Shown one piece after another: positions 4,925 through 32,501 of a DNA stretch of 32,501 nucleotides. Positions within the stretch are counted from its first letter, which is position 1. Each line of letters begins with the position of its first letter. The notes under the pieces were generated by a model. That model made no database searches. It was not told where the DNA came from and was given only the letters and a program-made list of their open reading frames with translations. Origin of the DNA: a virus. The stretch covers positions 1 to 32,501 of IMG/VR virus record IMGVR_UViG_3300044972_001114; one strand, written 5' to 3'. Position numbers and translations under genes: made by a program.

Positions 4925-4964
4925 GTGGTTCCTTTGTTGAGTAGTCCACGAGCATCGTAGCGAT

Positions 4965-13949: not shown

Positions 13950-14357
13950 TTACTTTGCCTCTCCCTCGCCGTTGCCTTCGGGTGGCGGCGAGGTTTCTTT
14001 TTGTCCAAATGGGATCATGCGATTGAGCGCCTCGCGCCGCTTCGCGCACCCTCCGCAAGTCCTGATGCCGACCGCCTTCGTCATGGCCTGCACTACGTCA
14101 CCCATCCCGCGCAGGCGCGGCTCACGCGCAGGTCGCGTAGGGGCAACGATCTCAGCCGCTGGCGGGGGCGACTTCATCCCGGCGAACAAGGGCGGGTCGG
14201 TGATGTTTCCCTCACGGCTGACGCGCGAGCCACAGGTATCACATTGCGCGGTATCTAGCCCGAGCAAGCAGACCGGGGCAGTACCAGCGACGCGCCACGA
14301 CTTGCAGTCCGCAATGGGGAGGGATATGCCGGAGATGTTGAGCGTGCCGAGCGTCAT
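13950..14357 (-). CDS. Late zinc-ribbon-like small protein
   Basis: A 135-residue protein and the last gene of the leftward unit. ATG 14357 overlaps the upstream stop as ATGA. It has paired cysteines (CDTCGSRVSREG near residue 40 and GIRTCGGCAKRREALNRMIP near residue 105) that could bind one zinc, with a proline- and arginine-rich linker between. The ending CGGCAKRREALN is common in small phage proteins encoded near tail and lysis genes. Function unknown. Its last ~17 codons coincide with the rightward terminator. Confidence 0.7.
   Translation of the reverse strand: MTLGTLNISGISLPIADCKSWRVAGTAPVCLLGLDTAQCDTCGSRVSREGNITDPPLFAGMKSPPPAAEIVAPTRPAREPRLRGMGDVVQAMTKAVGIRTCGGCAKRREALNRMIPFGQKETSPPPEGNGEGEAK
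13964..14002 (+). terminator. Rightward terminator inside the convergent gene
   Basis: The stem cctcgccg.. (13964-13976) with ..cggcgagg (13981-13993) around ttcg is followed by tttcttttt. It ends the rightward unit but lies wholly within the 3' end of the leftward gene at 14357-13950. Confidence 0.75.
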
Positions 14358-16192
14358 GACGATAAGCCTATGACCGTGCCGTCAGACTTGCAAAAGATTC
14401 GCGGCGATTGGAACGAATGGAAGCAAGGTTGCGGGAGAGGATGGTCGATGTCCCATTGACCTCCCGCCGTGCAGTCTTCGCCCTCTGGGCAGCACGGCGC
14501 AGGCTCGTAGGTGAATGGGTAGGCGTAGCACCCCGTGCGAGGGTCTGGCATTGAGGGGCAGAGGGACTCCCAGCCGTACACAAGGACGATGATGTCGTCC
14601 CCGATGGTGACCGTGATGTCTTCAAGCGGCCACCCGTTTCGCGCTTCGCAGTTAGTGACGTCTTGGAAGAAGGCAATGTCCACGCAGATTGAAATATCAG
14701 CGCTCGCGTACTCCTGAATGCGCTTCATCTGGTAGCGCTCGCCAAAGGAGTATTCGGGGAAGGAGAGGCATTGAATGACGAACGGCTGCGAATCTGTCAG
14801 CGCGGAGATGGCCGCGTTACAGGTGTTCTCCGTCGTCATTTGCCACGGGTAATCCACGATCAAAGTCTGCGTCGCGCACGCGTAGTATCGGATGGCAGTA
14901 CCGACGAGCGTGACCGTAATGTCCTGATTGCCGTTCGTAAACTCCACGCGGTCAACCGTGAGCAGGTCGCCAGCGGAGAATCCGGGGCGGTCGTTCGGGG
15001 TCTGCCAGTCGCAGGCAACGCAGGACTGGCGATTGCCGAACCAGAAGTAAGCGGACCAAGGCGCAATACCTGAGGCCGTCACTAGCCCGCCAATACGGTC
15101 ATTGATCCTTTGCGCGACGTGTCCGGCGTTTCCTGAGAAGATCACCACGTCAAGACCACAGACGCTCAGCTTGGGCGCTCCAAGCGTCCCCCAGCCTGTC
15201 GCCACGGTGTTCTCTTGGTCGATATGCACGATGCCAGACACCCCAAGGAACAAGGCATCAAGCGCAGCCTGTGCGCCCGGATCGTCTGGGTCAATCCCCG
15301 GCGCAAAGCACGCAGGGAAGACAATCGTCATGATGTCCTCAACATGGTCGGCGCACCCGAATGAATTCAGGCTGTAGCACGTCCGCACGTCGTACGTCTC
15401 AAAGCGATCCTCGAAACTGTCGCAGAAGTTTGGGTCGCTGTCGCAGTTCGGGGTATTGCCGCAGCAGTCGCCTTGCGGCTCGCAGTCAGGGCAATCCATG
15501 TGCTCGATGTAGTTCTGCGTGACCTGATTCGGGCAGCTGCCCAGCGTGACCGGGTCGCGCACGGTGCAAAAACTCATTTCCTGCGACATTGCGACACTCA
15601 AGGTCTGGATTTCCTCGGGCGGTCCGTGATCGCAGCGATCCTCCCACGGGACGCCAATCGTCTCAATGCAAGTGTTTGCTACGCTCGCAATGGTCACCCC
15701 CTTACCCTTGACGGTTCCGGCTTGATCCTTGAAGTCATAGCACTCGGCTATTAACTCCTCGCAAGGCAGTTCAGGGTCGTTCTCAATGACGGGACCTTCC
15801 TCGGTTTCAAGGTCGGCAATCCCGCCGGGGTTGCCCTGCACGGCTGGCTCCGGGTAGCAGCATGGGTTCTCGCCGATGACGCGATCTTTGACCTTGTACA
15901 AGATCCCCACATTGACCGGGTTGGTCGATAGCGGATTCGGGCAAGGCAACGCCTCCACACCTGTCAGGATGTAGATGCAGCAGTCGTACTTGATGTAGTA
16001 GCACTTGGTCGCAATGTCTGGCGGGTCGGGGATGCCGATTGAGATCAAGTACCCGAGGCAGAATTCAATGCGATCAGGCGCTGCCTCGCAGTCTGGCGGG
16101 CAGCAATACTCGTCAAAATACTCAGGGCATTTCAGGGCGTACCAAAGCACGCCGGGGTCGCAGCAACACGAAGCGGCAAGTATCGCGCTCAC
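14354..16192 (-). CDS. Cysteine-rich 612-residue late protein
   Basis: Read from GTG 16192, which overlaps the stop of a 15-codon peptide as GTGA, this 612-residue protein has 44 cysteines (about 7%), with clusters SCCC, YCCPPDC, DCC, PCC and DCCGNTPNC in the first half and a final PCCPEGEDC. The second half also carries beta-rich, adhesin-like stretches. I do not recognise the family. Downstream position after the tailspike and small membrane proteins suggests a virion-surface, tail-tip or lysis-associated protein. Phage proteins made in the cytoplasm rarely carry so many cysteines, so metal clusters, zinc sites or late disulphides are possibilities. The frame is open to 16282, but that extension would overlap two small genes. 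Confidence 0.82.
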   Translation of the reverse strand: MSAILAASCCCDPGVLWYALKCPEYFDEYCCPPDCEAAPDRIEFCLGYLISIGIPDPPDIATKCYYIKYDCCIYILTGVEALPCPNPLSTNPVNVGILYKVKDRVIGENPCCYPEPAVQGNPGGIADLETEEGPVIENDPELPCEELIAECYDFKDQAGTVKGKGVTIASVANTCIETIGVPWEDRCDHGPPEEIQTLSVAMSQEMSFCTVRDPVTLGSCPNQVTQNYIEHMDCPDCEPQGDCCGNTPNCDSDPNFCDSFEDRFETYDVRTCYSLNSFGCADHVEDIMTIVFPACFAPGIDPDDPGAQAALDALFLGVSGIVHIDQENTVATGWGTLGAPKLSVCGLDVVIFSGNAGHVAQRINDRIGGLVTASGIAPWSAYFWFGNRQSCVACDWQTPNDRPGFSAGDLLTVDRVEFTNGNQDITVTLVGTAIRYYACATQTLIVDYPWQMTTENTCNAAISALTDSQPFVIQCLSFPEYSFGERYQMKRIQEYASADISICVDIAFFQDVTNCEARNGWPLEDITVTIGDDIIVLVYGWESLCPSMPDPRTGCYAYPFTYEPAPCCPEGEDCTAGGQWDIDHPLPQPCFHSFQSPRIFCKSDGTVIGLSS

Positions 16193-16236
16193 GCTACGAT
16201 GATAATGCAGAGGGCGTAGATGACGACGCGGATCAT
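16189..16236 (-). CDS. 15-codon hydrophobic peptide, coupled at both ends
   Basis: The frame reads MIRVVIYALCIIIVA and stops. Its ATG overlaps the stop of the 37-codon gene (ATGA at 16233-16236) and its TGA overlaps the GTG of the cysteine-rich gene (GTGA at 16189-16192). Both overlaps fit the coupling style of the whole operon. It may be a membrane peptide or only a bridge that delivers ribosomes to the next gene. Confidence 0.5.
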   Translation of the reverse strand: MIRVVIYALCIIIVA

Positions 16237-16346
16237 CGTCCGGCCTTCTTGGTGGCGAGATACCAGCCTGCGCCGAAAGCAATGGCGGCGGCGGCGAGTG
16301 CGAACCAAAGACTACCGAGGAAGCTGGAGAAGTCTGCGAGGATCAT
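16233..16346 (-). CDS. Holin-like 37-residue membrane protein
   Basis: ATG 16346 starts two bases after the upstream TAA. The peptide begins MILADFSSFLGSLW, has one hydrophobic segment (FALAAAAIAFGAGWYLA) and ends KKAGR. One transmembrane helix plus a basic tail is typical of small phage holins or lysis-associated peptides, and the surrounding genes are membrane proteins. The lysis role is inferred from context. Confidence 0.6.
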   Translation of the reverse strand: MILADFSSFLGSLWFALAAAAIAFGAGWYLATKKAGR

Positions 16347-19791: not shown

Positions 19792-21561
19792 CTATTCGGT
19801 GCAAGTTACCTTCACGGCGTTCGGCATTGAGAACCAATACTGCGGAATGGAAGGAACACTCCCAATCTCGTAGGAGGTGGGGAATTGCTCGACCATGTGG
19901 ACAATGGTGTCGTTGCAGATCGGGAGCGCCTCGATGGTCGCATTGAGGTAGTGGGACTGCAATACGCCGGGGGCTACGCGGGTTGGGTCGGTGTTCCCGT
20001 TCTCTGCCATGTTGCGGGCGACGATTGCACCCGCTGCCGTGCGGGCGTAGTTACCAATACTGACGCTCGGGGTTGCCCCAACGGTTGGGTTAGGTTCGAC
20101 CTCGACAAACGAGTACGCCCAGCGCCAATTCCCGTAATACTCGCTATTCGTGATCCGAGCAGGGAACGAACGGCACATAGGAGGCGGTACGTCGATGATG
20201 GTCGCCCCGACGCAATTCCGGTATGCCTGTGCGTTGCCCTTGGCGGTGACCACGTCGCGCGGCTCGCTCCAACTCGTCCCCTGCAATCCGAAGCGCCAGT
20301 CCGCTTCGTCCGCCGAGGTGACGGTATGCGGCGACCATTCGCCGTCAATAATGGCAAGGCGGTAGGAGACATTCCCGAGCTGCCCGATGGTGGTGGTCGC
20401 ATTGCTGTACCACGGAATCCACCCAGCCCACACGGTGCGGCCGAAGGGGACATTGTTGTACCGAGAAGCGTAATCGGCTCGTATCAAGGTGGAGAGCGGG
20501 GTAGTGTTCCAACCCGGCGTACTCGTCAGCACCGCCCCGGTATGGTCATTGACGACCACCGACGCGTCCGTGATGTAGCCCGCTCCGATGTCGTTCGGGG
20601 CGCGGACAAAAGGAGCCGCATCCCCTGCCGCATAGACTTGGTTCGCCGTAAAGTTCTTGTCGAGCGCGGGGGTATTGGCGAGGTTGCAGTTGTTGTAGAC
20701 GGTCAACCCCTCAACCATGCGCTGGGGGAAGATCGTGCTGCACGTCAACGGCGCACGCGCTTGGAATCCGGTCGCGTTGTAGAGCGAAACGAGCGGGTTT
20801 GAAGAGGTCGATACCCCGTTCACAGGCTGCATCCCGCCGCGCATAGCGACTTGATACAACTGCATCCGCGCGTTGTACTGCTGTTTCAGGGTGGCACGAG
20901 CGATAAAGATCGTTGCCGACCCGGTGCTAACAATGATCTGCTGGTTTGCCACCGCGATAGCGTCAAGGACGAGCGCAAGGCTGACATTTGGCGAGCCGAA
21001 TAAGTCGCTCAGCCGCCTCATGTATTCCGGGGACTGCACGGTAAACCCGGTCGGGGAGGTCAGGCTGTCGGCCGTCGCCGCCGTAGTCACCTCGGCAAGA
21101 AGCTCGGTGTAGGTCGTGATCGGGTCGGGGGCGGTCGCTCCGTTGACCTGCCAGCGACCATCGGACGACCATGTCGGAGCAATAGCGAGGTTCAGGACAG
21201 CGGCGCTTGAGAATTGCCAGTACCAACGCTCGTCCACCAGTTCGACCAACACCGCGCCGCCCTGCTGCGTCCAGTAGAAAGGCTGATGCGGACGGGCGTA
21301 CAGGTTGCTGATGACGACCGACAGCCCGCTTGAATCCTCAAGCGTCAACGACACATTTAGGGCCGCGTACAAGGCGGCGATCTGCGTGGAGGCGATCAGG
21401 AAACTAGCGCGGGTGTGTTGCGTCATCCCGACTGGGACGTCCACGCAAAATAGATCCGCTTCTGGGATGCCGATCTGCCGCGCTGTGTCGAGCATGGCGG
21501 CATCAGGCAGCAAGACAGGGATCGTTGCAGCGCCTGCCGTGATGTAGGCCTGTACTCCCAT
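19792..21561 (-). CDS. Large tail protein, baseplate or tip (unknown family)
   Basis: A 589-residue protein, coupled to the gene before it by TAATG. It has an N-terminal part rich in beta strands (LNVSLTLEDSSGLSVVISN, QPFYWTQQGGAVLVELVDER) and a large C-terminal domain with many aromatic and Asn residues. The ERWYW.F segment near residue 110 recalls tail-tip proteins. I do not recognise a specific domain. Order after the tape measure and before the spike indicates distal tail or baseplate. Confidence 0.72.
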   Translation of the reverse strand: MGVQAYITAGAATIPVLLPDAAMLDTARQIGIPEADLFCVDVPVGMTQHTRASFLIASTQIAALYAALNVSLTLEDSSGLSVVISNLYARPHQPFYWTQQGGAVLVELVDERWYWQFSSAAVLNLAIAPTWSSDGRWQVNGATAPDPITTYTELLAEVTTAATADSLTSPTGFTVQSPEYMRRLSDLFGSPNVSLALVLDAIAVANQQIIVSTGSATIFIARATLKQQYNARMQLYQVAMRGGMQPVNGVSTSSNPLVSLYNATGFQARAPLTCSTIFPQRMVEGLTVYNNCNLANTPALDKNFTANQVYAAGDAAPFVRAPNDIGAGYITDASVVVNDHTGAVLTSTPGWNTTPLSTLIRADYASRYNNVPFGRTVWAGWIPWYSNATTTIGQLGNVSYRLAIIDGEWSPHTVTSADEADWRFGLQGTSWSEPRDVVTAKGNAQAYRNCVGATIIDVPPPMCRSFPARITNSEYYGNWRWAYSFVEVEPNPTVGATPSVSIGNYARTAAGAIVARNMAENGNTDPTRVAPGVLQSHYLNATIEALPICNDTIVHMVEQFPTSYEIGSVPSIPQYWFSMPNAVKVTCTE

Positions 21562-23372
21562 TACGCGTAGTCCTGTGGCGTGCCGACTTGGTACGCCTGT
21601 GGGGCGCTTCCGAGGCTCAATACAGATGACGCCGGGGACTGAACGTTTGGGTCGTACCCAAGGGTGAGCGGAGCCGCCACACTAGGGCTTGCGCCCGTTG
21701 GCCACCATTGACGGCGACCGCTTGCGGTGTAGTAGCCGTTACTCGTCGAGCCGCCACCGTCAAACGACATGAGCGTGCGGGTATAGACCCCGATGAACAT
21801 ACGGTGTCCGCTTTGGTCAATGTCGCCGTGATTGACCTTCCAGTCATCAGCAACAACCACGAACCCGCTAGGGATTGGACGGAACGTCCGCACGGGTGGG
21901 ATGTTCGTGCGCTTGACGATGGTTGTTTCCTCAAGCGTAACTACCGCCTTGCCCGTCTGGAAGACAAAGTCAGACCCTTCGGTGTAAAGCGTTTGCAGAC
22001 GGTGCATACGCGTATTGGTGTTCACCTTGGTCGTCGTTGCCGCTTGGTCAACGGTCGTCACAATCCCGTCGCTGTTGAATTGCGAAATCGGGGGATCGAA
22101 CGGTCCGGTTTCGATAGCCGCGTTGGCGGCCGTAAATTCTGTATCCGGAATACTGATCGAAATGGTCGGCGTACTGGGGCCGCAATAATCCGTGTAAACC
22201 TGAATGCACGAGGCGACCGCTATGGTCTGCGTTGTCGTTGCCTTGGCGTTTGTCTGGTTGTTCGCCCAGTGCGGCGTATTAGCGGCTCCGCGATACGGTC
22301 CGTATGGATCAGAGAAAGGAGGGCAGGAACGACCAACGGTAAAGAATTTACCGACGTATTGAGCCAGCGGAACGGAGCCGTTGGCAAGTCCAACAATATC
22401 CGTACCGACCGCTGGGCAAAGCGCCTCAAGTTCAAACCGGATCTTCGCCTTCTTGAGCATATCTTGCTCGGTCACAACCAGCCGAAGTATCTTGCTACGC
22501 GTGAAACTGATGCGCGATTGCGCCAGTACCACCGCCGACCAAATCATGTGCCTTACGTCTCCGGTAACGTCGCCCTCTAAATCGCAATTGAATCGAAGAA
22601 TTGCATATGCGCCTGTATTGGTTCGCTCATAGGTGAAATCAGCCGACCCTGAGAACGCGCTATCCGGTAAAGACGTGCGAGCGTTGGAATCCGTGATTTC
22701 GTAAATGAGCGAGTTGCCCGTTTCGTTGTACGCGAACGTCTGCGCCTCGCGCCGCCAGATCCCATCGACGTTTAGAACCGGAAGGATGGCGCGCCGGAAT
22801 AAATCGGCGTAGGGCGCTTTCCCTGTCACCTGTCCGACCGTGCCGTTTAGCGCAGGCGCAACGGTTGTCCCAGTTGCAGCCAAATCGACAACAAGCGACC
22901 CAGATACCACACGCGTCAAATGACCAGCCGCGTCAAGCGAGAAGCGCGACGTCCAGCGGTGCGAAATGATTGGATACGCTGTATCTCCAGAAGGGTAAGC
23001 CACTGCAGCCATAACGCTGAAATTGCAGATAGCCGCGCGGATGCCCGCGATTTCTGTCACCGTAACACTTACCAACGGACCGCGGAGTGCATCGGGGGCC
23101 TGAACGCTAAAGAGCAATTCTGTTCCTTCGCCTGTCTGGGTTACAAGAAACACATTACTAACCTGTCCCGGTCCGTTTCGGTTAAGTGTTTCTAGGTCAA
23201 AATATGTGTTTAGCCCACTCGAAACCAAACCGCTTCCAGAGACGTGTATTTCGTGGCGGATCAGCGTGTACCCGTCTTCGGCGTAAATCGGTCGCCACTC
23301 ATAAGACGAGATGTTTACGTTGTCAATTTGGTAGACGGCGCTGTCGTATTCGAAATTTAGAGTCGTACTCAT
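21561..23372 (-). CDS. Large distal tail protein (unknown family)
   Basis: A 603-residue beta-rich protein directly after the tape-measure gene, coupled to it and to the next gene by TAATG overlaps. The start MSTTLNFEYDSAVYQIDNVN and an even spread of short strands suggest a distal tail or baseplate hub protein. A region with SFTRSKILRLVVTEQDMLKK resembles a helical link. In siphoviruses this position holds the distal tail and tail-associated proteins; the assignment is from order. Confidence 0.72.
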   Translation of the reverse strand: MSTTLNFEYDSAVYQIDNVNISSYEWRPIYAEDGYTLIRHEIHVSGSGLVSSGLNTYFDLETLNRNGPGQVSNVFLVTQTGEGTELLFSVQAPDALRGPLVSVTVTEIAGIRAAICNFSVMAAVAYPSGDTAYPIISHRWTSRFSLDAAGHLTRVVSGSLVVDLAATGTTVAPALNGTVGQVTGKAPYADLFRRAILPVLNVDGIWRREAQTFAYNETGNSLIYEITDSNARTSLPDSAFSGSADFTYERTNTGAYAILRFNCDLEGDVTGDVRHMIWSAVVLAQSRISFTRSKILRLVVTEQDMLKKAKIRFELEALCPAVGTDIVGLANGSVPLAQYVGKFFTVGRSCPPFSDPYGPYRGAANTPHWANNQTNAKATTTQTIAVASCIQVYTDYCGPSTPTISISIPDTEFTAANAAIETGPFDPPISQFNSDGIVTTVDQAATTTKVNTNTRMHRLQTLYTEGSDFVFQTGKAVVTLEETTIVKRTNIPPVRTFRPIPSGFVVVADDWKVNHGDIDQSGHRMFIGVYTRTLMSFDGGGSTSNGYYTASGRRQWWPTGASPSVAAPLTLGYDPNVQSPASSVLSLGSAPQAYQVGTPQDYA

Positions 23373-24208
23373 TAGATTTTCGCTCCCATAAGGGCTAGGT
23401 CTGCAAGGAATGGAGCGTTTAGAGCCTTGTAATCAACGTCTGGCTTTGTGTTTCGATTAATGGCGCGCAGGTCATTCGCAATGTCTCTCCACATTTTGAC
23501 TATTGGGGATTCAGGATTGACCGCATCGAACAACCTAAGACCGCCAGCGGGAACTAAGGCGCGAGCAGCTTCACGCGATACACCTGCGTAGGTTGCGTAC
23601 TTTGAGGTTTCAGCAAGATAAGAAGCCGCTGCGGCCATGAAATTGATGATCTTGGGAAGGTTTCGGACAATGCTTTCCAAGATGTCGGCAAGTAGTTTCG
23701 TAATAGGGCGAAGGAATGCCGACCCCATACCAGCAAGCGCCGTTTTGATTTCAAGCGTTGCGCGGTCAACCCGACCCGCTTCCTTTATTTGCGCCCCAAT
23801 GCCTGCCCCGTATTGGTTGCCAAGCCTGAACTTGGTCAGCATCATATTCAGGTCATTGCCCAGTTCTGCCAACTGGATGCCGGGGCTGAATTCGCGCAGT
23901 TCACCAGCAACATCCATGATGAATTTATGCAGCGACATGAGAGCAGCGGCAACCGCCCTGACCGCTTGCACTACCGCCCCAAACGCAACGGTAGCAACAC
24001 CGACCGCCGCGCCGATACCCATCATCGCCTTGGACACAAACCCGGCCGCGCCATCAATAGACTTACCTGCAAAGTCCAATACCTTGGAAGCGCCTTGACC
24101 CATGATTGACTTTGCCGTCGGGGCGCTCGCGCCACCGCCTGCGGCTCCACCAGCCGAAGCCTTGCCGCCCTCGTTGATGTCAATCGTGATCTTGCCTAGG
24201 TCTTGCAT
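23372..24208 (-). CDS. Short tape-measure-like protein
   Basis: A 278-residue protein read from ATG 24208, which overlaps the upstream stop as TAATG; the frame is open to 24223. It has a Gly/Ala-rich N-terminus (GGKASAGGAAGGGASAP), two hydrophobic helices (MMGIGAAVGVATVAFGAVVQ and the following AVRAVAAALMSL) and amphipathic helices after them, including LADILESIVRNLPKIINFMA. These are tape-measure features. At about 0.15 nm per residue the length predicts a tail near 42 nm, short for a siphovirus. It follows the chaperone pair, as expected. Confidence 0.7.
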   Translation of the reverse strand: MQDLGKITIDINEGGKASAGGAAGGGASAPTAKSIMGQGASKVLDFAGKSIDGAAGFVSKAMMGIGAAVGVATVAFGAVVQAVRAVAAALMSLHKFIMDVAGELREFSPGIQLAELGNDLNMMLTKFRLGNQYGAGIGAQIKEAGRVDRATLEIKTALAGMGSAFLRPITKLLADILESIVRNLPKIINFMAAAASYLAETSKYATYAGVSREAARALVPAGGLRLFDAVNPESPIVKMWRDIANDLRAINRNTKPDVDYKALNAPFLADLALMGAKI

Positions 24209-24672
24209 TACTGAACCTCCCACGTCATTTCAAAGGCGCACAGGAAAGTCTCCGTGCCGCGCATCCAGCCGACCGCTTCGTCTACCGCTTCGATCTGCCC
24301 ACCGCTGCGCCATGTGAGCGGGATGGTCAGGCGACCGTTGAGCGTGTTCTGGATCAGGAGTGTGCGCAGCCCGTCGATGAATTGCTCAATGCCTTCTTCC
24401 CCGGCAATGCGCTCGGTCGCTTGGCTTGTGTGATCGAGTAGCCCGCGCCACCAGACCGTTATATTGATGGTCGCTTGAAGCAGGCCAACGCCGCTAAGGG
24501 GATGTAGCGACGCGTCGCCCGATGGGACGATCTGCACCGCGTACTGTGCGATCATGTCGTCCATCGGCTTCTCGGTTAAGTAGACCTGATCCCCGTAGCC
24601 GCGCGCCACCATCCAACTACCGATTTGGTTCCGCAGCTCAAGCCAAATTCCTGAGTTAGTTTGGATACTCAT
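24208..24672 (-). CDS. Tail terminator-like protein
   Basis: A 154-residue protein with mixed alpha/beta sequence (IWLELRNQIGSWMVARG, LQATINITVWWRGLLDH, GTETFLCAFEMTWEVQ) like tail terminator or tail completion proteins of Mu- and lambda-type phages. ATG 24672 overlaps the chaperone GT stop as ATGA. Its place after the chaperone rather than beside the tail-completion gene is unusual, so the role is not certain. Confidence 0.55.
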   Translation of the reverse strand: MSIQTNSGIWLELRNQIGSWMVARGYGDQVYLTEKPMDDMIAQYAVQIVPSGDASLHPLSGVGLLQATINITVWWRGLLDHTSQATERIAGEEGIEQFIDGLRTLLIQNTLNGRLTIPLTWRSGGQIEAVDEAVGWMRGTETFLCAFEMTWEVQ

Positions 24673-24857
24673 CGTTGGCTTGCCGCCTTGCTGTGTTCCA
24701 TTTCCATACGCGTGCGGAATGCAAGCGAGGCATCGCCTGTGGCAAGCCGAATGGTTTGCTCAGTCATTTCAGGAGAGCCAAGAGCAACGGCAATGCCTTG
24801 AGCAAATACCAGCGACTGGCGCGCTTCGATCATGGGGATGTTCTGCGCTAGTCCCAT
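24669..24857 (-). CDS. Tail assembly chaperone, downstream (T) part
   Basis: Read from ATG 24857 the frame gives 62 residues, but it is open upstream without a stop to 24929, where it meets the slippery site of the upstream chaperone gene. The likely product is a fusion of about 170 residues (84 + 24 + 62). GAAGG upstream of the ATG could also allow separate initiation. The sequence is helical (MIEARQSLVFAQGIAVALGS, IRLATGDASLAFRTRMEMEH), typical of chaperone T domains that recruit tail tube subunits. Confidence 0.75.
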   Translation of the reverse strand: MGLAQNIPMIEARQSLVFAQGIAVALGSPEMTEQTIRLATGDASLAFRTRMEMEHSKAASQR

Positions 24858-24925
24858 TGCTGTGCCTTCGTCAAAGTCTGAGGGGAGCCGTCCGTATGTT
24901 GCAACGAATAGGGATACCCCCCTTG

Positions 24926-25180
24926 CTATTTTCCCGCTTGCTCTACCGCCTGACCCATGCGCGCAAAGACTGCGAAGAGGATCTCATCCGACGCGCTAGC
25001 AGCCACTTCGGGCGAGCGTGCTACTTTTCGTAAGGCGGCGGCGACATCCGCGACTTGCGGAGCGGCGTCTTGCTTTCCGCTCAATGCGGCTAGTGCTTCG
25101 TTCCATTGCACTACCAGCGCGCCGGATGGGATTTCGATGCGGAAGAGAAGCGGGTCGGTGTCAGGTGTTAGGTCGATCAT
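24926..25180 (-). CDS. Tail assembly chaperone, upstream (G) part
   Basis: An 84-residue protein between the tail tube and tape-measure genes. It starts with a beta segment (PLLFRIEIPSGALVVQWNEA) then helices to QAVEQAGK at the stop. Size, position and the in-frame slippery heptamer G GGA AAA at its last codons identify it as the G-type chaperone of siphoviruses, which binds the tape measure during tail assembly. The ATG follows the tube gene's TAA by one base. Confidence 0.82.
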   Translation of the reverse strand: MIDLTPDTDPLLFRIEIPSGALVVQWNEALAALSGKQDAAPQVADVAAALRKVARSPEVAASASDEILFAVFARMGQAVEQAGK

Positions 25181-25181
25181 A

Positions 25182-25670
25182 TTACGAAGTATATGACGCG
25201 GCGAGAATATTGCTGCCGTCTGGGATGGCGCGGAAGGTCAAACCCATGCGCTGCTCGACGTTGCCGAATTGCGAGTGAGTGATGGCGTCGCCCATCAAGA
25301 AGCAACGCCCGAAGGTGTAGCCCGTCTTACCTACCGCTATTGGGTCGATTTGAACCCCGAACGTCCCGCTATCAGCCACCAGCAAGCGACCGACCGTGGA
25401 TGTAAACGCCGCGCCACGCTGCCGCGTCTGTACGCTCGTCAGTACGGCCGCATCCCACTTGACCAGCGTGACGGTGATGGTCGCGCTCGTATTCTGCACC
25501 ACCATCTCCTCCGGGGTCGCGCCCGACGAAACGGTCTTGATCTCATGGACGTTGTCCGAGTAGGAAACTTGCGGGAGGCTGTCGTTGTCGGTCTGCCCGA
25601 GTTCGACATACCCAGCCCCGACATTGACGAAGATTGACGTTGGACCAGCGACGAAGATTGCGGTTGCCAT
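25182..25670 (-). CDS. Major tail tube protein
   Basis: A 162-residue beta-rich protein whose start overlaps the upstream stop as TAATG. The order tail completion, this gene, chaperone G/T, tape measure is that of siphovirus tail operons, where the tube protein sits just before the chaperones. Sequence such as VVQNTSATITVTLVKWDAAV and a C-terminal MGLTFRAIPDGSN fit a tail-tube beta sandwich like that of phage tube proteins that share a fold with type VI secretion Hcp. No exact family match can be claimed by eye. Confidence 0.75.
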   Translation of the reverse strand: MATAIFVAGPTSIFVNVGAGYVELGQTDNDSLPQVSYSDNVHEIKTVSSGATPEEMVVQNTSATITVTLVKWDAAVLTSVQTRQRGAAFTSTVGRLLVADSGTFGVQIDPIAVGKTGYTFGRCFLMGDAITHSQFGNVEQRMGLTFRAIPDGSNILAASYTS

Positions 25671-26359
25671 TACTTGAGTTTCCCTTTGAGGATTTTGGCA
25701 AGCCCGATTTTGATCGTCTTGCCGATACTTGAGAATTCGGTGCTAGTCGGGACAAGGAACGGACGGGCGGGAACGTCTACGCCGCTCCATGCCATCGTAA
25801 AATCCTTGCCGGGGGTCAGTCCCTCGCTGTAGGGATTGGCTCCGGTGGCGTGTCCGCGCTTGCCCTTGCGCGTCAGCGGGATGAAGTTCGGGCCGTCGGT
25901 TGAGAAGCCCTTCTCATGGTAGATGCCGTAGATAGCGCCCGACATGGTCACGGAGAGGCGGGACGGGCCGACCTGCTCGGCTTTCGCACCAATCGACCGC
26001 AGTAGGTTCCCGGTATCGCGGAGCGGCTGACCACCGTTCCGGTAGGACTGACCGGACATCTTGTACTCGGTCACCATGACGTTCTTGACGACAATCGAGC
26101 CGTCCTTCTTCTTGCGGCTGACCGCCTTGAGGACTTGGCGCGTCGCGCTTGCCGTATCGCCAGCGCGCGGCTTCTTGGTCGTCCAGAACTCGCCCGACAT
26201 GGGCTTGAGGGCTGCAAGGGCGACCGTCTCCCCGTTCGGACCGCGTCCTTGGCTTTTGGCAATGTGCTGCTTGGCGTAAGACGAGATAGCCGCCGCAATG
26301 CCGCTACGGATTGCATCGTTGGCGAGCGCCTTGCTGATTCTCTTGCGCCACGGCTCCAC
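25670..26359 (-). CDS. Tail completion protein, Mu gpG / HK97 gp10-like
   Basis: A 229-residue protein from GTG 26359. The signature GGQPLRDTGNLLRSIGAK followed by SGAIYGIYHEKG and, near the C-terminus, DVPARPFLVP matches phage virion morphogenesis proteins (Mu gpG family, PF05069), which join heads to tails. Here the gene is longer than typical (150-180), with an extended basic loop (SRKKKDGSIVVKNVMV). It follows a Mu gp36-like connector, the same order as in Mu. Confidence 0.85.
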   Translation of the reverse strand: MEPWRKRISKALANDAIRSGIAAAISSYAKQHIAKSQGRGPNGETVALAALKPMSGEFWTTKKPRAGDTASATRQVLKAVSRKKKDGSIVVKNVMVTEYKMSGQSYRNGGQPLRDTGNLLRSIGAKAEQVGPSRLSVTMSGAIYGIYHEKGFSTDGPNFIPLTRKGKRGHATGANPYSEGLTPGKDFTMAWSGVDVPARPFLVPTSTEFSSIGKTIKIGLAKILKGKLK

Positions 26360-26360
26360 G

Positions 26361-26855
26361 TCAGCGCCCCGGCATCGTGTTCGGGAGGCGAGGGCGGAAG
26401 AAGGCGCTCGTGCTAACGCCGTCGTACCAAGCGTTCGTCATCGCCGGGGTAGCCTGCACCGCTGGCAAGCCCGCTTCTGCTGCCTTGGCGAGCGCCCCAA
26501 ATATCATCTTCCCGTCCCGGAGTGCTTCCAGCATGGAGTACGCCTGCTTTAGACGCTGCTCCACGGCTGGGGTAATCTTCATGGCGCGACGCTGAAAGAG
26601 CGCCTCAACCGCCAAGTCAACAACGAGCGTCATCAGCAGGGGGTCACGAGCCGCTGAGAGCGTCGTCAAATCCAAATCGGTGTAGATGCCGCCTACACGC
26701 GTGTACGCCTGCACAATCCCTGTAGCGCGTTCTAGCGCGTGCGTCGTGACCGGGTTGGAGCCGAGCATAGGACTGCCGAGGTCGCTGCACAGTTGTGCAA
26801 TGATCTGAGCGTCGAGCGCGGCTTCCAAATCGGCGTAGGTGGCGTATGCGGTCAT
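26361..26855 (-). CDS. Head-tail connector, Mu gp36-like (DUF1320)
   Basis: A 164-residue protein starting MTAYATYADLEAALDAQIIA. The pattern of an N-terminal 'Y.t..dL' helix, a central ALERATGIVQAYTRVGG helix and a following LLMTLVVDLAVEALFQRR fits DUF1320 (Mu gp36), a connector that joins portal-side head proteins to the tail. A proline- and glycine-containing tail follows. It is separated from the capsid gene by a strong hairpin. Confidence 0.75.
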   Translation of the reverse strand: MTAYATYADLEAALDAQIIAQLCSDLGSPMLGSNPVTTHALERATGIVQAYTRVGGIYTDLDLTTLSAARDPLLMTLVVDLAVEALFQRRAMKITPAVEQRLKQAYSMLEALRDGKMIFGALAKAAEAGLPAVQATPAMTNAWYDGVSTSAFFRPRLPNTMPGR

Positions 26856-26872
26856 AGGTTCCGCCTAGAGAG

Positions 26873-26903
26873 GGAGGTGGGAACCGAAGTCCCCACCACC
26901 CTC
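26873..26903 (-). terminator. Hairpin after the capsid gene (attenuator or processing site)
   Basis: On the minus strand gggtggtgggga.. pairs with ..ttcccacctccc around a UUCG-like loop, just after the major capsid stop. A T-tract is lacking (ctctct follows), so partial termination or mRNA 3'-end protection of the highly expressed capsid message is more likely than a full stop. Confidence 0.5.
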
Positions 26904-26922
26904 ATCCTGAGAGGCTGAATAA

Positions 26923-27957
26923 TCAGGCGACGACAGTGCCACACAGGAACCCAGAGACTGGAGCAACCAGTTCTGAGGTGCTGTTGTCAATGACGCGGCC
27001 TTCAATACGGCGATCCTTCGGATCGTCCCAGTTCTCAACCGTCATATCTTCGAATGCGAAGATCTGGCAGGTGCTGAACGAGGTCGAACCTTCGACACCA
27101 ATCAAGCCACCGGGGCGGCTCACAAAGATTGCCGAGTTGCCGTACACGAACGAACGAGTCGCCGAGGCTGCGCCCTTGCGGGTCGTAATCTTGACCGAGT
27201 CGTCAACGACAACTGAAACGCCGAACAGATTTGGCGGGAGGCCGTAACGGCTGAAGATGTCAGAGCCTTGCAAGAATGGCAAGGCGGCTGGGTAGTTCTT
27301 CACATAGTTACGGATTTCTTCCGCCTGTGAGATGATATTTGCAACGGTCGGACTAATGACCATGCAAATGTCTTCACTACGAACCGCGCCACCAGTAGCA
27401 AGCGAGATGCGCTGGAGCGCGTCTTGGATACTTGCCTGAATGACGTTAGTGGACGAACTCGTCCAAACGCCCTTCCAAGCACTAGCAGAAGCCTGATAGT
27501 TGCCAGCTGTGGTAAACGCGTTCACAGCTGCGGTGTTGGTCAGCGCGGTAGCCGTTCGCATGGAGCGAGCGGTCATAGCGAGCTGTGCCTTGCTGCGAGC
27601 GTGCTGGGCAACGATGTCCCACGCGGCTTGCTTGACCGTCTCGTTCGGAATGTAGAACGGGAAGGCAAAGCGTTGAGCCGTGAAGGTAACGAAGTCATGC
27701 TCGTTCATCTTGCCGACCGGGCGGTCGTTACCAAGAGGCCAAGCGAATTCGTTAACGTCGGTCACGCGCACGTTGTCGTCCGAATTAAGACGCAGGTAGT
27801 ACCCCGTCTGCTGATTGCAGGCGACGATTTGAGCGTAACGGGTGATGGCAAACGAATTCACCGCACGGGTGAACTCAACTTGGAGAGCGCCAGTTGCGAG
27901 CGCGTTGGTGGAGGGGACGTAAGTGTTTAGACCGCCTCCGACTGTTACATAGGCCAT
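26923..27957 (-). CDS. Major capsid protein, HK97-fold
   Basis: A 344-residue protein from ATG 27957 with the strongest ribosome site in the window (AAAGGAGG). Features typical of HK97-fold capsid proteins are an extended N-arm, FVTFTAQRFAFPFYIPNETV (E-loop/P-domain region), a long spine helix region (QAAWDIVAQHARSKAQLAMT), the VISPTVANIISQAEEI segment and the C-terminal ENWDDPKDRRIEGRVID. The order protease/scaffold, decoration, capsid fits. The N-terminus (GGGLNTYVPST, residues 7-17) recurs in the protease gene. No large N-terminal delta domain is present, consistent with a separate scaffold. Confidence 0.88.
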   Translation of the reverse strand: MAYVTVGGGLNTYVPSTNALATGALQVEFTRAVNSFAITRYAQIVACNQQTGYYLRLNSDDNVRVTDVNEFAWPLGNDRPVGKMNEHDFVTFTAQRFAFPFYIPNETVKQAAWDIVAQHARSKAQLAMTARSMRTATALTNTAAVNAFTTAGNYQASASAWKGVWTSSSTNVIQASIQDALQRISLATGGAVRSEDICMVISPTVANIISQAEEIRNYVKNYPAALPFLQGSDIFSRYGLPPNLFGVSVVVDDSVKITTRKGAASATRSFVYGNSAIFVSRPGGLIGVEGSTSFSTCQIFAFEDMTVENWDDPKDRRIEGRVIDNSTSELVAPVSGFLCGTVVA

Positions 27958-27982
27958 TTGATGACCTCCTTTCGATGATTAA

Positions 27983-28372
27983 TTACAGAGGCTTGACGGA
28001 GGGCAGGCGGTACGCCCAGAAGATGGTGTCCACGGCTGCGGCTTCAAGAGCCACGAACAGAGGAACATTTCCAGTACCAGCCGCAGTAATCGCTACGCCC
28101 GCAGTCCCGGCGATCAAGCCAAGACCCGCAGTAATAGCGGTCGATGCGCCGCACTTCAGTTGAACGCAGTTCGACGGCTGGAGACTGATTGGGTCGCCTG
28201 CTGCTGCGTGAACCGATGAGTCGAATCGACGGGTTGAGCCGTCAGCAACGCCGACAACGTAGTCAGCTGCTGCCGTGGAGGCAGAACCTGAGAACGCGGT
28301 CGTTGACATCTTGACGATGGCATAGGGGTTGATGTCAGCAGTAGCAATGAGATTAGGAGAGAATTGAAGCAT
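27983..28372 (-). CDS. Head decoration-like protein (DUF2190 type)
   Basis: A 129-residue beta-rich protein from ATG 28372 with AAAGGAAA upstream. Sequence such as FSPNLIATADINPYAIVKMS, then ADYVVGVADGSTR and GDPISLQPSNCVQLKCGAS, fits the capsid-decoration family DUF2190, in which short hydrophobic strands report a 'v.G.a......Gd.v.v...G..' pattern. It sits between scaffold and capsid gene, the usual place. It probably stabilises the capsid exterior. Confidence 0.75.
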   Translation of the reverse strand: MLQFSPNLIATADINPYAIVKMSTTAFSGSASTAAADYVVGVADGSTRRFDSSVHAAAGDPISLQPSNCVQLKCGASTAITAGLGLIAGTAGVAITAAGTGNVPLFVALEAAAVDTIFWAYRLPSVKPL

Positions 28373-28384
28373 TGTTGTTTCCTT

Positions 28385-28993
28385 TTATCCCTTCATTCGG
28401 GAGTTGATTGCACGGGCAAACTCTTCAGGCTTGCCAGCAAATTGCTTGACGAGTGAGCCAACGTCACCAATGTCCATGCCACGCGGCAGGGCTGCTCGGC
28501 TCATATCAATCTTGGTTCCGATTGGGTCGCGGGCGAACAGGTCGCGCCATGACTCAAGGAGCTCGACTGGGTTACGGGAGGCCTGCAACTGACCAACAAG
28601 CGCGGCGCGCTGTGAGTCTGGGATGCGGTAGCCCTCCTGCTCCATGATCTCCACTTCGCGCTCAAACTTCTCGCGCTTCAACTCGGCTTCGAGTCGGGCG
28701 AACCGCGACTTGAGACGGGCGTTCTCGGAGCGAAGCGCGTAGGTGGATCGGCTAGCGACCACCGACTCCGCCTCGTCTTCGTCTTCGCCTGCCTCAACGT
28801 CATGGCTCTCAATGTCGATGTGGACTTGACCGTCTTCCTCGGCCATCTCGTCCTTCATCTCATCGTCGTCCTCAGCCATCTCGTCCTTATCGTCCGAGTC
28901 GTCTGCGAACTTCTTCTTCATCATGTCCGAGAGTTCGGAGATGGCGCACTTCATGGCCTCCAACTCCTCGCGCATATCGTCGCTGGATGCCAT
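28385..28993 (-). CDS. Nested scaffold protein (internal start in protease gene)
   Basis: An in-frame ATG at 28993 (MASSDDMREELEAMK) lies 7 bases after AAGGAGGA (29008-29001), a near-perfect ribosome site. The 202-residue product is acidic and coiled coil: an Asp/Glu-rich stretch (DDSDDKDEMAEDDDEMKDEM), then NARLKSRFARLEAELKREKF, and a C-terminal helical part ending FARAINSRMKG. That matches scaffold proteins. The layout is that of lambda C/Nu3, where the scaffold is the C-terminal part of the protease gene made from its own start. Confidence 0.82.
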   Translation of the reverse strand: MASSDDMREELEAMKCAISELSDMMKKKFADDSDDKDEMAEDDDEMKDEMAEEDGQVHIDIESHDVEAGEDEDEAESVVASRSTYALRSENARLKSRFARLEAELKREKFEREVEIMEQEGYRIPDSQRAALVGQLQASRNPVELLESWRDLFARDPIGTKIDMSRAALPRGMDIGDVGSLVKQFAGKPEEFARAINSRMKG

Positions 28994-29875
28994 GCTGGCC
29001 TCCTCCTTGGTAGTCGTCGGGACAAAGGTATTGAGTCCGCCACCAGCCCCGACGAGGTCATGGTTGGACTTTGAACAAGTGATCTTCTCGCCCTTGCGGG
29101 TGAAATGGGTGTCCGGGAGAGGGCGGCGCGGGGTTTCACGCCCGAGCAACGCCACTTCGGATAGGTGGTTTGAGCCTGACCAGATCTCAGCCGACCGACG
29201 CGGGAAGGCGTTGGTAGCAATGAAGCGGTCGAAAATATCGCGGTTTACTTCCATGTCGCCCACAATGTACCCAATCCCATCGCGTTCTTCGTAGGAAATT
29301 GTGGGGAATCGACCGACAGCGGACTTCGGTTCCTTGCCATCCTTCTCGTGCATGATGACGAGGCGAGGGAACGAACCGCGAGCCATGTGCTTGCGCGTAC
29401 TAGCAACGATGTCCTTGAGGCGCTTGTTGTTGAAACGCTTCAGTTCCGGGTCAGCCTCGCCGTCGTCAATGGCTGGGTCAAACGCCATGAACAGTTCGAC
29501 GCGCTCAATCATGACCTTGTCGCCGTCTTCGGCGACTGTGTGAGATGTCTTTGCGTTCACGGTCTTCTCCTCTTTGCGGTCGAGTTCCTTGTCCTTGCGC
29601 TCCGCCCATGCCTTGCCAGCATCGCCGCCCCACAGGAGCCAAGCGATATAGCCAGCGGAATCCTTGCCCCATCCTTCGCCCTGCTTGTCAACCTCATGCC
29701 GAGCGAAGTAGGACACCATGCGGCGCACGGTTTCGGGTGACAGGTTCGCCCGGTTCTTGATGTCACGCGCCCGGGCTACGCCGATTTCTGTGCCACCGCG
29801 ACCATGCTTTTCCCGCAGCTCAAGGCCACGGGCAGCATTGGATGCCATTTCGGTGGTTGGCTTCAAGTCGATCAT
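28385..29875 (-). CDS. Capsid maturation protease with fused N-terminal domain and scaffold
   Basis: A 496-residue protein. Residues 1-95 form a small domain (ARARDIKNRANLSPETVRRM, then YIAWLLWGGDAGKAWAERK) that I know as an add-on in phage head proteins. Residues ~115-275 are protease-like: RLVIMHEKDGKEPKSAVGRF, YIVGDMEVNRDIFDRFIATN, FPRRSAEIWSGSNHLSEVAL and LLGRETPRRPLPDTHFTR, with His of VIMH and Ser of RRSAEIW as candidate catalytic residues. Residues 278-288 (GGGLNTFVPTT) match the capsid protein N-terminus. From 295 on it is the scaffold. The ATG overlaps the preceding stop as TAATG. The protease would cleave scaffold and head proteins during maturation. Confidence 0.75.
   Translation of the reverse strand: MIDLKPTTEMASNAARGLELREKHGRGGTEIGVARARDIKNRANLSPETVRRMVSYFARHEVDKQGEGWGKDSAGYIAWLLWGGDAGKAWAERKDKELDRKEEKTVNAKTSHTVAEDGDKVMIERVELFMAFDPAIDDGEADPELKRFNNKRLKDIVASTRKHMARGSFPRLVIMHEKDGKEPKSAVGRFPTISYEERDGIGYIVGDMEVNRDIFDRFIATNAFPRRSAEIWSGSNHLSEVALLGRETPRRPLPDTHFTRKGEKITCSKSNHDLVGAGGGLNTFVPTTTKEEASMASSDDMREELEAMKCAISELSDMMKKKFADDSDDKDEMAEDDDEMKDEMAEEDGQVHIDIESHDVEAGEDEDEAESVVASRSTYALRSENARLKSRFARLEAELKREKFEREVEIMEQEGYRIPDSQRAALVGQLQASRNPVELLESWRDLFARDPIGTKIDMSRAALPRGMDIGDVGSLVKQFAGKPEEFARAINSRMKG
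29012..29044 (-). other. Peptide motif shared with the capsid N-terminus
   Basis: This stretch encodes GGGLNTFVPTT; the capsid gene encodes GGGLNTYVPST at 27907-27939. The bases also agree in part. It lies directly upstream of the internal ribosome site for the scaffold. Confidence 0.7.
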
Positions 29876-31224
29876 TAGGCGGTTAGCCCTTGGATTTGAC
29901 CGTCACTTAGACGCGTTGGGAAGTATTTGATCTTGCGAATGGCGTTGTTGAGAACAACCGCCGTGTCGGTGATGCTTGTCCCGTTTGTCGACGGGCCGCC
30001 AATACTCAGGAACGTCGGAGCAACACTAAACGCTAGCGTCCCCGGCACAACTGTGCCGCCATTGAGGCACAGGCTTTGCACCGATCCGGAGTACGAGAAC
30101 GCGCCCTTGTTGATTGAATTGTCTACAGACGCGTTCGCGGTTTCGATAAACGCGGGAACCTTGTCAGCCAGTCGAAGCCGCGAGGTGGTCGCTGCTATGT
30201 ACTGGTGAAGGTGTTGGTTGGAAACGTCGCTCGTTGCAATGACGGTGCGTTGGGTAGTGGTTGGACTGCAACGACACCACTCGGTCACAAACGTACCCGT
30301 TGTCCCGCCTGTGTACCACGAGCTGAAGTTTGTCCCAGCGGCAATGATGGCGGTGTCGACGGCGCGGGTGACCGTACTCGCGCCCGTAAGAATTGTCGAG
30401 GATGCAACAGAACCTAGTTCAAGTTGTGCGCCCCAAATGTAGTTCTCGACTGCGGCCGATGTGTCTAAATTAGGGTACACGGCAAGTAGTACAGTTGAAC
30501 TTATAGAAGTAAATACAACCGACACTCGCACCCATCGATCACTTGGAACATTAGAGAATTGCGACCCAAAACCGGATGCATTATTTATTGTTACAGCGGG
30601 ATCGCTGCAACTACCGACAGTAGTTAATGGCGTACCACCAACATCAAAAGGAGCCAATCGGAAATATGTAGCGCCATTAGTGCCAGCGCGAAGCCACATA
30701 CTGTAGGTATATTGCTGCGATGTGGTTACTGTTGCGTATGTAAACAGCCGTACAAAAGTAGGGCCTGCATCTTTTGTAATACTTGTACCCGTAAGCGTCC
30801 CATTGTCGGGCCCGTTAATTCTTGCTATTGGAGTTCCTGAGGTTGCAAGTATTGAGTTGATATTGACTTTCGCACTTACACCCCACAGGTTAGCGTCATA
30901 ACAGTATTGACCCTGCTGACACAAATTCGTTGCTGGGGCTTCTAGTAGTAGCCCACGCGGAGTGCCAATAGATGTCTCAGAGAAGGTGAAGCGGGGCGCT
31001 TGCGGTTGCCCGCTTGGTACTGTCTCCACATAGCCAAGGCTATTGATGAACGTAGCCCGAGCGGTCGCGTCTGCGCGGCTAAACGTGATGCGCGGGTCAA
31101 TCGTTCCACCCATCGCCGTGAAGTCAAGGGACAACGTCGAGCCGTCGCCAGAGCGCGACATGAGTCGGCTGTCGTAAGACGAGCCGCTGATCCTTGACAT
31201 CCTTGGACGGTTCGCTCGATTCAT
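29875..31224 (-). CDS. Virion-surface protein with lectin-like beta sandwich (head or fibre)
   Basis: A 449-residue protein. The N-terminal part STLSLDFTAMGGTIDPRITF, SRADATARATFINSLGYVET then GTPRGLLLEAPATNL is a conserved entry sequence of phage virion proteins that precedes jelly-roll, carbohydrate-binding-like domains. The rest is beta-rich (LamG/CBM-like: YTYSMWLRAGTNGATYFRLA, DRWVRVSVVFTSIS, NYIWGAQLELGSVASSTIL) and ends RKIKYFPTRLSDGQIQGLTA. It probably binds glycans. The position inside the head operon, between F-like and protease genes, suggests a head fibre or decoration rather than a tail fibre. Translation is coupled to the protease (TAATG). Confidence 0.72.
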   Translation of the reverse strand: MNRANRPRMSRISGSSYDSRLMSRSGDGSTLSLDFTAMGGTIDPRITFSRADATARATFINSLGYVETVPSGQPQAPRFTFSETSIGTPRGLLLEAPATNLCQQGQYCYDANLWGVSAKVNINSILATSGTPIARINGPDNGTLTGTSITKDAGPTFVRLFTYATVTTSQQYTYSMWLRAGTNGATYFRLAPFDVGGTPLTTVGSCSDPAVTINNASGFGSQFSNVPSDRWVRVSVVFTSISSTVLLAVYPNLDTSAAVENYIWGAQLELGSVASSTILTGASTVTRAVDTAIIAAGTNFSSWYTGGTTGTFVTEWCRCSPTTTQRTVIATSDVSNQHLHQYIAATTSRLRLADKVPAFIETANASVDNSINKGAFSYSGSVQSLCLNGGTVVPGTLAFSVAPTFLSIGGPSTNGTSITDTAVVLNNAIRKIKYFPTRLSDGQIQGLTA

Positions 31225-32037
31225 TTACAGGTTAGCCCAGAAGGTTCCCATAGTTGGCGTGCCGCTCGACTTGAATTGCGCGGTGACGTAAGAAGCCCCG
31301 GCAACGTCAACCATCGCGTAGGCGGGTTCCACGTTTGCGCCTGCGGGCGAGTACAGGTTGGCGGCAGGGGTTCCGGCGACCTGCGTAATGCCCGAGAAGG
31401 TGCGCGTGTTGAGAGCGCCGTCCATCGTGTAGTTCGGGACGGTTCCGCTGGTGAAGGTCAGCGTGAAGTCTGCGAGGACGGTCGGCATATACCAAAAGCC
31501 CGTACCAGTCGTGCGCGTGTACTGCAATCCTGTCGGCGTGCCTGCGGTGGTGACGACTGCAGTTCCGCCGAGTGTCGCGGAGAGCTGGAAGGTCGTTGAG
31601 CCGTTCGTTGCAATGATGTAGTAGGTCGTTGGGCTGGTGTACCCGGTGATCGTTCCCGTTCCGCCGAGCGTTCCGGTAATGGTCACGGCCTGCCCGACTA
31701 CAAGGACGTTCGCGTTGCAGGTGAAGTTACCTGCGGTGTCTGCAATGGTGACACCCGCAAGCGTGCCAGCGGTGTCAAGGTACTTGCGCCAGCCGAGGAG
31801 CCGCATACCGATGGCGGTCTGCGCGGTGGTCGCCGCCACCATGAACGGCATGACGTACAGGAGCGAAGGGTTCGTCCCGCTCACCGATGCCGTGTTGATA
31901 TCCCACAGGAGGGCGCTTCCGGTCGCACTCGCCGGGGCGGCTTGCAGGAGAATCGCCTGCGCTGCGGTGTAGGTTGCAGGGACGGACGCGACCGATACCT
32001 TGCGGAAGTTCTCTTGGGCGGTGTTGATTACGGGCAT
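31225..32037 (-). CDS. Virion protein with inserted Ig-like/beta repeat domain
   Basis: A 270-residue protein from ATG 32037, which directly follows the TAA of the joint-spanning gene. The middle (about residues 102-175: GNFTCNANVLVVGQAVTITG, GYTSPTTYYIIATNGSTTFQ, then LSATLGGTAVVTTAGTPTGL) is a module I have met in many freshwater and marine phage virion proteins, inserted into unrelated hosts. The flanks (AIGMRLLGWRKYLDTA before, GFWYMPTVLADFTLTFTSGT after) look like one domain interrupted by it. A head fibre or decoration role is inferred from the module and the next gene. Confidence 0.7.
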   Translation of the reverse strand: MPVINTAQENFRKVSVASVPATYTAAQAILLQAAPASATGSALLWDINTASVSGTNPSLLYVMPFMVAATTAQTAIGMRLLGWRKYLDTAGTLAGVTIADTAGNFTCNANVLVVGQAVTITGTLGGTGTITGYTSPTTYYIIATNGSTTFQLSATLGGTAVVTTAGTPTGLQYTRTTGTGFWYMPTVLADFTLTFTSGTVPNYTMDGALNTRTFSGITQVAGTPAANLYSPAGANVEPAYAMVDVAGASYVTAQFKSSGTPTMGTFWANL

Positions 32038-32501
32038 TTACAGTTCTCCTCTGCGCTTCATGTCGAGCGCGATTGCGATCGCTTGGTCTTGTGGCTTGCC
32101 TTCTTTGATGAGGGTGGCTATTTTTTCGCCGACGGCTGGGTCAGCGGCGGACATGATCTTCAGCCCTGCCTTCTGCTCCTCGGTCTGATCGCGGGTCATG
32201 CGGGTCTTTGTGCCGGGGCGGGAGGACTTCATTTGTCCAAAGTCAATGGTGACAATCCCAATGTGCTGCGCTGGGCCGTCTTGATCTGCGGGATATTGAT
32301 TCTCGCGTGCTGTGATTGCCGATTCCGGAACGCCCATTTGCTTCATTGCTCCCTTGAGTTTGGAAACCATTTCAGTTGCCTTGCCCTTTTGGTCAATGAA
32401 CTCAACGTGTGCAACGCCGAAACGGCTTGACGCGCTGATATTGTCCGGCTTGAATCCAAACCGTGAAATCAAAGACCTCAATTTGGTTTCAATATCGCCA
32501 G
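32038..32501 (-). CDS. Motif-repeat protein spanning the joint, C-terminal part
   Basis: This is the continuation of the frame that starts at 582. It holds a segment (GVAHVEFIDQKGKATEMVSK, MKQMGVPESAITARENQ, HIGIVTIDFGQMKS) like a small alpha/beta domain, then the motif SRPGTKTR (32200-32223) and a C-terminal helical module (VGEKIATLIKEGKPQDQAIA, then RRGEL), similar to a module of the gene at 4924. A TTG at 32481 could be mistaken for its start, but the frame is open across the joint. The TAA is followed at once by the next ATG. Confidence 0.8.
   Translation of the reverse strand, partial: GDIETKLRSLISRFGFKPDNISASSRFGVAHVEFIDQKGKATEMVSKLKGAMKQMGVPESAITARENQYPADQDGPAQHIGIVTIDFGQMKSSRPGTKTRMTRDQTEEQKAGLKIMSAADPAVGEKIATLIKEGKPQDQAIAIALDMKRRGEL
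32200..32223 (-). repeat. RPGxKAK motif copy in joint-spanning gene, C-terminal
   Basis: It encodes SRPGTKTR; on the plus strand it reads gtgccggggcgggaggac. The same plus-strand string occurs around 3921-3938 in the other motif-repeat gene. Confidence 0.75.
32389..32501. repeat. Terminal direct repeat, right copy
   Basis: This is identical to bases 1-113. Removing one copy gives a circle of 32,388 bases with an intact gene across the joint. Confidence 0.97.

Follow-up and report, generated by a model that had tools for sequence, protein, structure and literature searches.

Does a small gene in the tail region of a virus of bacteria yield one protein, ending at its own stop codon, or also a longer one made when ribosomes slip back a base and read on in a second frame? 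The locus that raises this question lies on the minus strand of a 32,501-base virus record (the window, by which we mean the whole stretch of DNA analyzed), where positions 24937-24926 read GCG GGA AAA TAG. As judged from the sequence and its relatives, such a slip very probably allows this uncultured virus to make a small tail-building protein in a second, longer form. The elements of the putative frameshift are as follows.

24926-25180, minus strand: 0-frame open reading frame "G", 84 aa, a tail assembly chaperone candidate, recognized as an ORF and by its G-frame pN/pS.
24929-24935, minus strand: slippery heptamer G GGA AAA (GGGAAAA), in X XXY YYZ phase.
24926-24928, minus strand: 0-frame stop codon TAG, abutting the heptamer, which places the window in the 0-nt group described below.
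24669-24929, minus strand: -1 frame extension "T", 86 codons plus TGA, recognized as an open frame and by its T-frame pN/pS.

The T extension and the heptamer have one base in common. Past the heptamer the -1 frame reads ATA GCA AGG GGG GTA and onward to its first stop, the TGA at 24671-24669, which in the sequence ATGA overlaps the start codon of the following gene. A slip of one base would produce a fusion of 170 aa (84 + 86). The first in-frame ATG of T is found only at 24857-24855, at the end of a 72-nt bridge that begins at 24929, and in the T frame of the window no ATG, GTG, or TTG precedes that ATG as far back as the upstream stop of the frame. The sequence-only reading from which we started had described the heptamer in slippery phase and in contact with the stop, a -1 frame open to 24669 giving a fusion of about 170 residues, and a 72-base bridge; each of these was confirmed. 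The heptamer GGGAAAA is by itself common, with two copies observed in the window versus 3.98 expected, and the case therefore rests on comparison with relatives. The other copy, at 29808-29814 on the minus strand, is out of slippery phase in the ORF at 28385-29875.

Relatives were collected by scanning IMG/VR contigs with peptide patterns and tblastn, and the heptamer was not used as a search key. The collection comprised 201 loci from 110 distinct contigs, with two of the scans represented by the best 80 of 82 and the best 80 of 112 matches. The distinct contigs are the first-seen loci, listed by hand, and a false row reading AAATTTG (six loci) was left out of the counts. Among the matches listed, an in-phase X XXY YYZ heptamer was present in 201 of 201 loci and 110 of 110 distinct contigs, in every locus at a constant distance from the T motif F...YGR.P. 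The heptamer was GGGAAAC in 83 of these listed contigs, GGGAAAA in 26, and AAAAAAC in one, and the 0-frame stop stood 0 nt past it in 69/110 and 3 nt past it in 41/110, with TGA, TAA, and TAG all present. In the single exception (locus L138, heptamer at 3252-3258), A AAA AAC replaces the GGGAAAC of others, and since GGG has been changed to AAA, slipperiness is retained. Relatives lacking the heptamer, or carrying stops in the bridge, had been named at the outset as what would speak against a slip; the check for both was run and went in favor of it in 110 of the 110 contigs listed. A chance heptamer was thus ruled out by this conservation among the matches listed. Compared with the window, the most diverged relatives were about 39% identical in G and about 36% identical in T. 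Isolate phages yielded no DNA match to positions 20000-32501; tblastn against them returned only matches at E 0.8 to unrelated Pseudomonas phage proteins with the fusion from locus L042, and no match with the G protein from L121. The bacterial and archaeal genomes scanned revealed no relative.

We then compared 45 distinct sequences, namely the window and 44 relatives, two of which (L158 and L169) had been added by hand to the 43 others. Over the 20 codons before the heptamer, pN/pS was 0.64 in the G frame versus 1.14 and 1.37 in the other frames (n = 45). Over the 60 nt past the slip it was 0.38 in the T frame versus 1.36 and 1.61 in the others, and further downstream 0.49 versus 1.04 and 1.24 (n = 45 for both). 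Purifying selection thus switches frame at the heptamer, and the new frame is under coding selection from the slip site onward. In 12 of the 45 (the window and 11 others), the stretch of T frame that runs from the upstream stop to the inner AMGL codon is free of ATG, GTG, and TTG, so in these the conserved first part of T would be reachable only by a shift. Some NTG codon occurs inside the bridge in 21/45 and upstream of it in many, none of them common to all. The P-site codon of the slip was GGA in 44 of the 45 sequences and AAA in the remaining one. All 44 of the P-site glycines were encoded by GGA, as compared to 14 of 141 among the other glycine codons of G; because the sequences are related, the 44 are not independent events.

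The sequence-only reading had suspected that a G-run and a C-run behind the stop might form structure. A hairpin was indeed found 5-7 nt downstream of the heptamer, backed by covariation, and its arms in the window are these.

24916-24923, minus strand: 5' arm, A GGGGGG U, beginning 5 nt past the heptamer, supported by folding and covariation.
24881-24888, minus strand: 3' arm, G CUCCCC U, supported by folding and covariation.

In the window these arms form a stem of 8 bp at -16.2 kcal/mol (z -1.21), which on its own is not exceptional. A spacing of about 5-9 nt is usual for the structure downstream of a -1 site, and here it is 5 nt in the window fold and 7 nt to the conserved core. The 66 nt from the heptamer onward could be aligned without gaps, and RNAalifold, unprompted, returned from the 45 distinct sequences a core of 6 bp between columns 15-20 and 48-53, four pairs of which had changed on both sides. 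For covariation scoring we chose a longer stem of 11 bp, in which 82.4% of cells were paired (n = 45). Its covariation score was 0.333 versus 0.145 for shuffled alignments (0 of 500 as high) and 0.039-0.122 for versions of the stem slid along the alignment. The number of pairs with two-sided changes was in no excess over shuffles (201 of 500 as high), nor were further pair types (426 of 500 as high). Compensatory changes were then placed on a tree inferred from those G and T residues that lie beyond the 66 nt, except for the G codons before the slip. This revealed 12 inferred double compensatory changes, versus 0-1 in each of six slid versions, distributed as four at pair 17-51, two at 18-50, five at 19-49, and one at 20-48. 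Examples of covarying arms are GGCATCC/GGATGCC, GGCAACC/GGTTGCC, and GGGAGGCC/GGCCTCCC. Beyond the 6-bp core the stem is patchy, with columns 21-24 broken in 5-23 of the 45 sequences and pair 14-54 in 25 of 45. When eight sequences were folded individually, L028 and L088 were clearly more stable than their shuffles, and for two others (L013 and L091) the minimum-energy fold was a different or branched one with no simple hairpin. Because the stem pairing covaries in the alignment, the L, M, or P of the T motif YGR[LMP]P, encoded within 24881-24923 and the corresponding stretch of relatives, changes in step with the opposite stem arm, as though pairing in the RNA were driving a change in the T protein at that position.

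A weaker candidate element lies on the other side of the heptamer.

24945-24951, minus strand: possible internal Shine-Dalgarno-like stretch, AGGCGGT, weak, 9-10 nt before the heptamer.

Its raw mean was -7.45 versus -3.98 kcal/mol, and in a profile of 24 representatives, which ignored their kinship, it ranked second best of 77 positions, another place within G giving the higher peak.

The sequence arrangement, its conservation, the switch in selected frame, and the covarying hairpin are direct observations, and several explanations other than a ribosomal slip can be weighed against them. T might be a separate protein begun, without frameshifting, at the conserved inner start (24857, AMGL). 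That codon is ATG in 43 and TTG in 2 of the 45 distinct sequences, some of which have a GGAG-like stretch about 6 nt upstream, and a T protein so initiated could exist alongside GT. However, initiation there would leave untranslated the preceding 24 codons, which are among the best conserved of T: all 44 of the 44 aligned sequences share the Y, G, R, P, F, and D of YGR.P..FD, and the T-frame pN/pS is 0.38. The inner start also accounts for neither heptamer nor hairpin, and we regard it as quite improbable as the whole explanation. Slippage of the polymerase rather than the ribosome, with the change of frame already in the RNA, appears still less credible. In bacteria such slippage occurs on runs of about nine A or T (PMC5009743), but the run here consists of four A, and of only three in the 83 of 110 contigs, among the matches listed, that have GGGAAAC; nor would it need a covarying hairpin at ribosomal spacing. 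A sequencing error or a decayed gene, devoid of function, would look the same if there were a single such break in one contig. The identical break recurs in 110 contigs listed, with all three stop codons, and purifying selection acts on both sides of it. These observations refute error or decay, to which we give almost no credence. Programmed -1 ribosomal frameshifting at the heptamer is strongly supported by the comparative sequence data.

What the two products might do was approached through the proteins themselves and the genes around them. A Pfam search with the fusion gave no match. Among PHROGs, 1 of 44 G proteins matched, at E 0.0045, a family without function, and 0 of 44 T proteins matched. 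Lambda-like homology of G and T was therefore set aside, as Pfam and PHROGs gave nothing useful. AlphaFold2 predicted a small alpha/beta fold for G, at a pLDDT of 88.4, and four helices for T, at a pLDDT of 91.0 and a pTM of 0.61. Fold searches with either returned no significant named match; the best viral matches were unnamed 89-aa proteins, A0A516L3X5 for G (E 1.4e-3, TM 0.79/0.76) and A0A516LL78 for T (E 0.13). Against solved structures, the best hit to G had a Z of 4.9 (an aldolase domain), accompanied by many histone rows, with nothing meaningful among them. The neighboring genes of interest are listed here.

25182-25670, minus strand: tail tube protein candidate, 162 aa, matching Pfam Phage_TTP_17 at E 1.2e-4, below the curated cut-off.
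24208-24672, minus strand: conserved gene, 154 aa, with no assigned family, whose ATG overlaps the T stop (ATGA).
23372-24223, minus strand: tape-measure candidate, 283 aa, suggested by position and length variability.

Nine of 18 homologues of the tube candidate matched Phage_TTP_17 at E<=0.01, the best at 2.7e-5. The tape-measure candidate ranged from 260 to 398 aa in 18 sequences, and one of 17 members matched the PHROG "tail protein" at E 0.0012. In 18 of 18 cases, judged by ORF size and position, the order was capsid, gp36-like adaptor, neck protein, tube candidate, G/T, a gene of 150-170 aa, and the tape-measure candidate. No PHROG was matched by the 150-170 aa gene (24208-24672 and relatives) in 18/18 members; its WW and GG..GW residues are invariant, and as a guess it could be a tail terminator candidate. 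The lambda gene order claimed by the sequence-only reading is therefore partly right; the departure from it is the 150-170 aa gene, itself conserved, that separates T from the tape-measure candidate. The window carries Mu-like head genes, matching Portal_Mu at E 2.9e-44, Phage_Mu_F at E 2.1e-14, and gp36 at E 4.8e-9, and the Mu-like portal, F-like, and gp36-like genes at 608-6431 and 26361-27957 are found together with a non-Mu tail order. A large cysteine-rich ORF (14354-16282, 642 aa) with many CC pairs is also present, in the tail or fiber region.

The frameshifted pair is thus situated between a weakly matched tube candidate and the tape-measure candidate, with one extra gene intervening. 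Since G follows a weakly recognized tail tube gene, the best reading is that G/T is a candidate tail assembly chaperone of the lambda G/GT type, as the label given at the outset had it; position and frameshift favor that label, and homology to known chaperones was found in neither Pfam nor PHROGs. The frameshift could be real and the pair serve instead in some other aspect of virion assembly or structure. The want of homology in Pfam and PHROGs, the additional gene before the tape-measure candidate, and the weak tube assignment would all be in keeping with this. A position directly past the tube candidate, combined with a heptamer of the form G GGA AAx, is, however, typical of G/GT (PMC5009743), and the gene order is kept in 18 of 18, so we consider a role other than chaperone unlikely.

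We propose that most ribosomes would translate the 84-aa G and halt at the stop abutting the heptamer, and that a minority would shift by -1 at the heptamer: the tRNA in the P site would re-pair from GGA to GGG, and the one in the A site from AAA, which is AAC in most relatives, to AAA. The hairpin, 5-7 nt downstream, would meet the ribosome at the mRNA entry channel and aid the slip, and the slipped ribosomes would continue in the -1 frame to give the 170-aa GT fusion. For ribosomes that do not slip, the 0-frame stop within one codon of the slip would end G, and its nearness may add kinetic competition. G and GT would then act as tail assembly chaperones as in phage lambda; G would bind the tape measure protein, and the T part of GT would bring in subunits of the tail tube. 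The slipping itself, its efficiency, and the chaperone role are what we infer here, and to the proposal as a whole, from slip at the heptamer with its hairpin to G/GT chaperones, we assign a probability of about 0.87. The mechanism is a known one that carries unusually clear marks here, in a phage lineage so far unstudied. The locus adds a well-documented, covariation-backed case to tail-chaperone frameshifting, from a lineage with no isolate among the records searched, and gives gene callers reason to annotate a fusion that would otherwise be missed. A full-text literature search, limited to the words "tail assembly chaperone," "frameshift," and "covariation," returned no paper joining the three.

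Among the closest known systems is lambda gpG/gpGT (Levin 1993 and Xu 2004/2013, as cited in PMC5009743), in which about one GT is made per 30 G, and the partners of G and T are the tape measure protein and the tube protein, respectively. Both systems have two short overlapping frames behind the tube gene, a heptamer of the form G GGA AAx late in G, a -1 extension without an upstream start of its own, and a tape-measure gene, here a candidate, downstream (PMC5009743). The G and T of the window lineage have no detectable sequence relation to those of lambda, and in contrast to lambda the lineage carries a stop 0 or 3 nt past the heptamer and a strongly covarying hairpin, and has an extra gene between T and the tape-measure candidate as well as Mu-like head genes. 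The haloarchaeal siphoviruses HCTV-1 (G_GGA_AAC) and HCTV-2 (A_AAA_AAC) employ the heptamers of the majority of our relatives and of L138, respectively (PMC5009743). E. coli dnaX and other bacterial -1 sites likewise combine an X XXY YYZ heptamer with a simple downstream stem-loop, and a few bacterial dnaX genes have a stop directly past the slip site (PMC5009743). The upstream Shine-Dalgarno stimulator of dnaX (PMC5009743) has as its counterpart in the window only the weak candidate stretch.

The mean distance from slip to stop in annotated phage sets is 26 nt for SEA-PHAGES and 36 nt for the Xu set (PMC10885494). The polymerase sites of umbra-, diantho-, and luteoviruses have the pre-shift stop exactly 0 or 3 nt behind, with an adjoining stem-loop (PMC4737148), and our phage relatives exhibit the same 0/3 nt dichotomy and a stem-loop after the slip site. 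The viruses, their host ribosomes, and the product are unrelated, and the plant-virus element, a bulged stem-loop of considerable length, also engages in long-distance pairing (PMC4737148), whereas that of the window is a short hairpin. When the PEMV stop was replaced with a sense codon, frameshifting in vitro fell by 72%, and other stops had no effect (PMC4737148); in work on HIV with a stop codon introduced just past the slip site, release factor could read it before slipping (PMC4373837). By analogy with these results a role for the stop is plausible here. That a stop so close to the slip site, at 0 or 3 nt, is part of the signal, with termination competing with or stimulating slippage, is nonetheless a tentative reading that we think doubtful, and the constant distance may mean no more than that there is no need to encode anything in between. 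The constant distance makes a role of the stop codon in -1 slippage testable on natural variants. If the stop were coupled to the slip, the GT:G ratio would follow the supply of release factor in the host, and phages and plant viruses would have converged on a stop-coupled design, here setting the stoichiometry of a tail chaperone.
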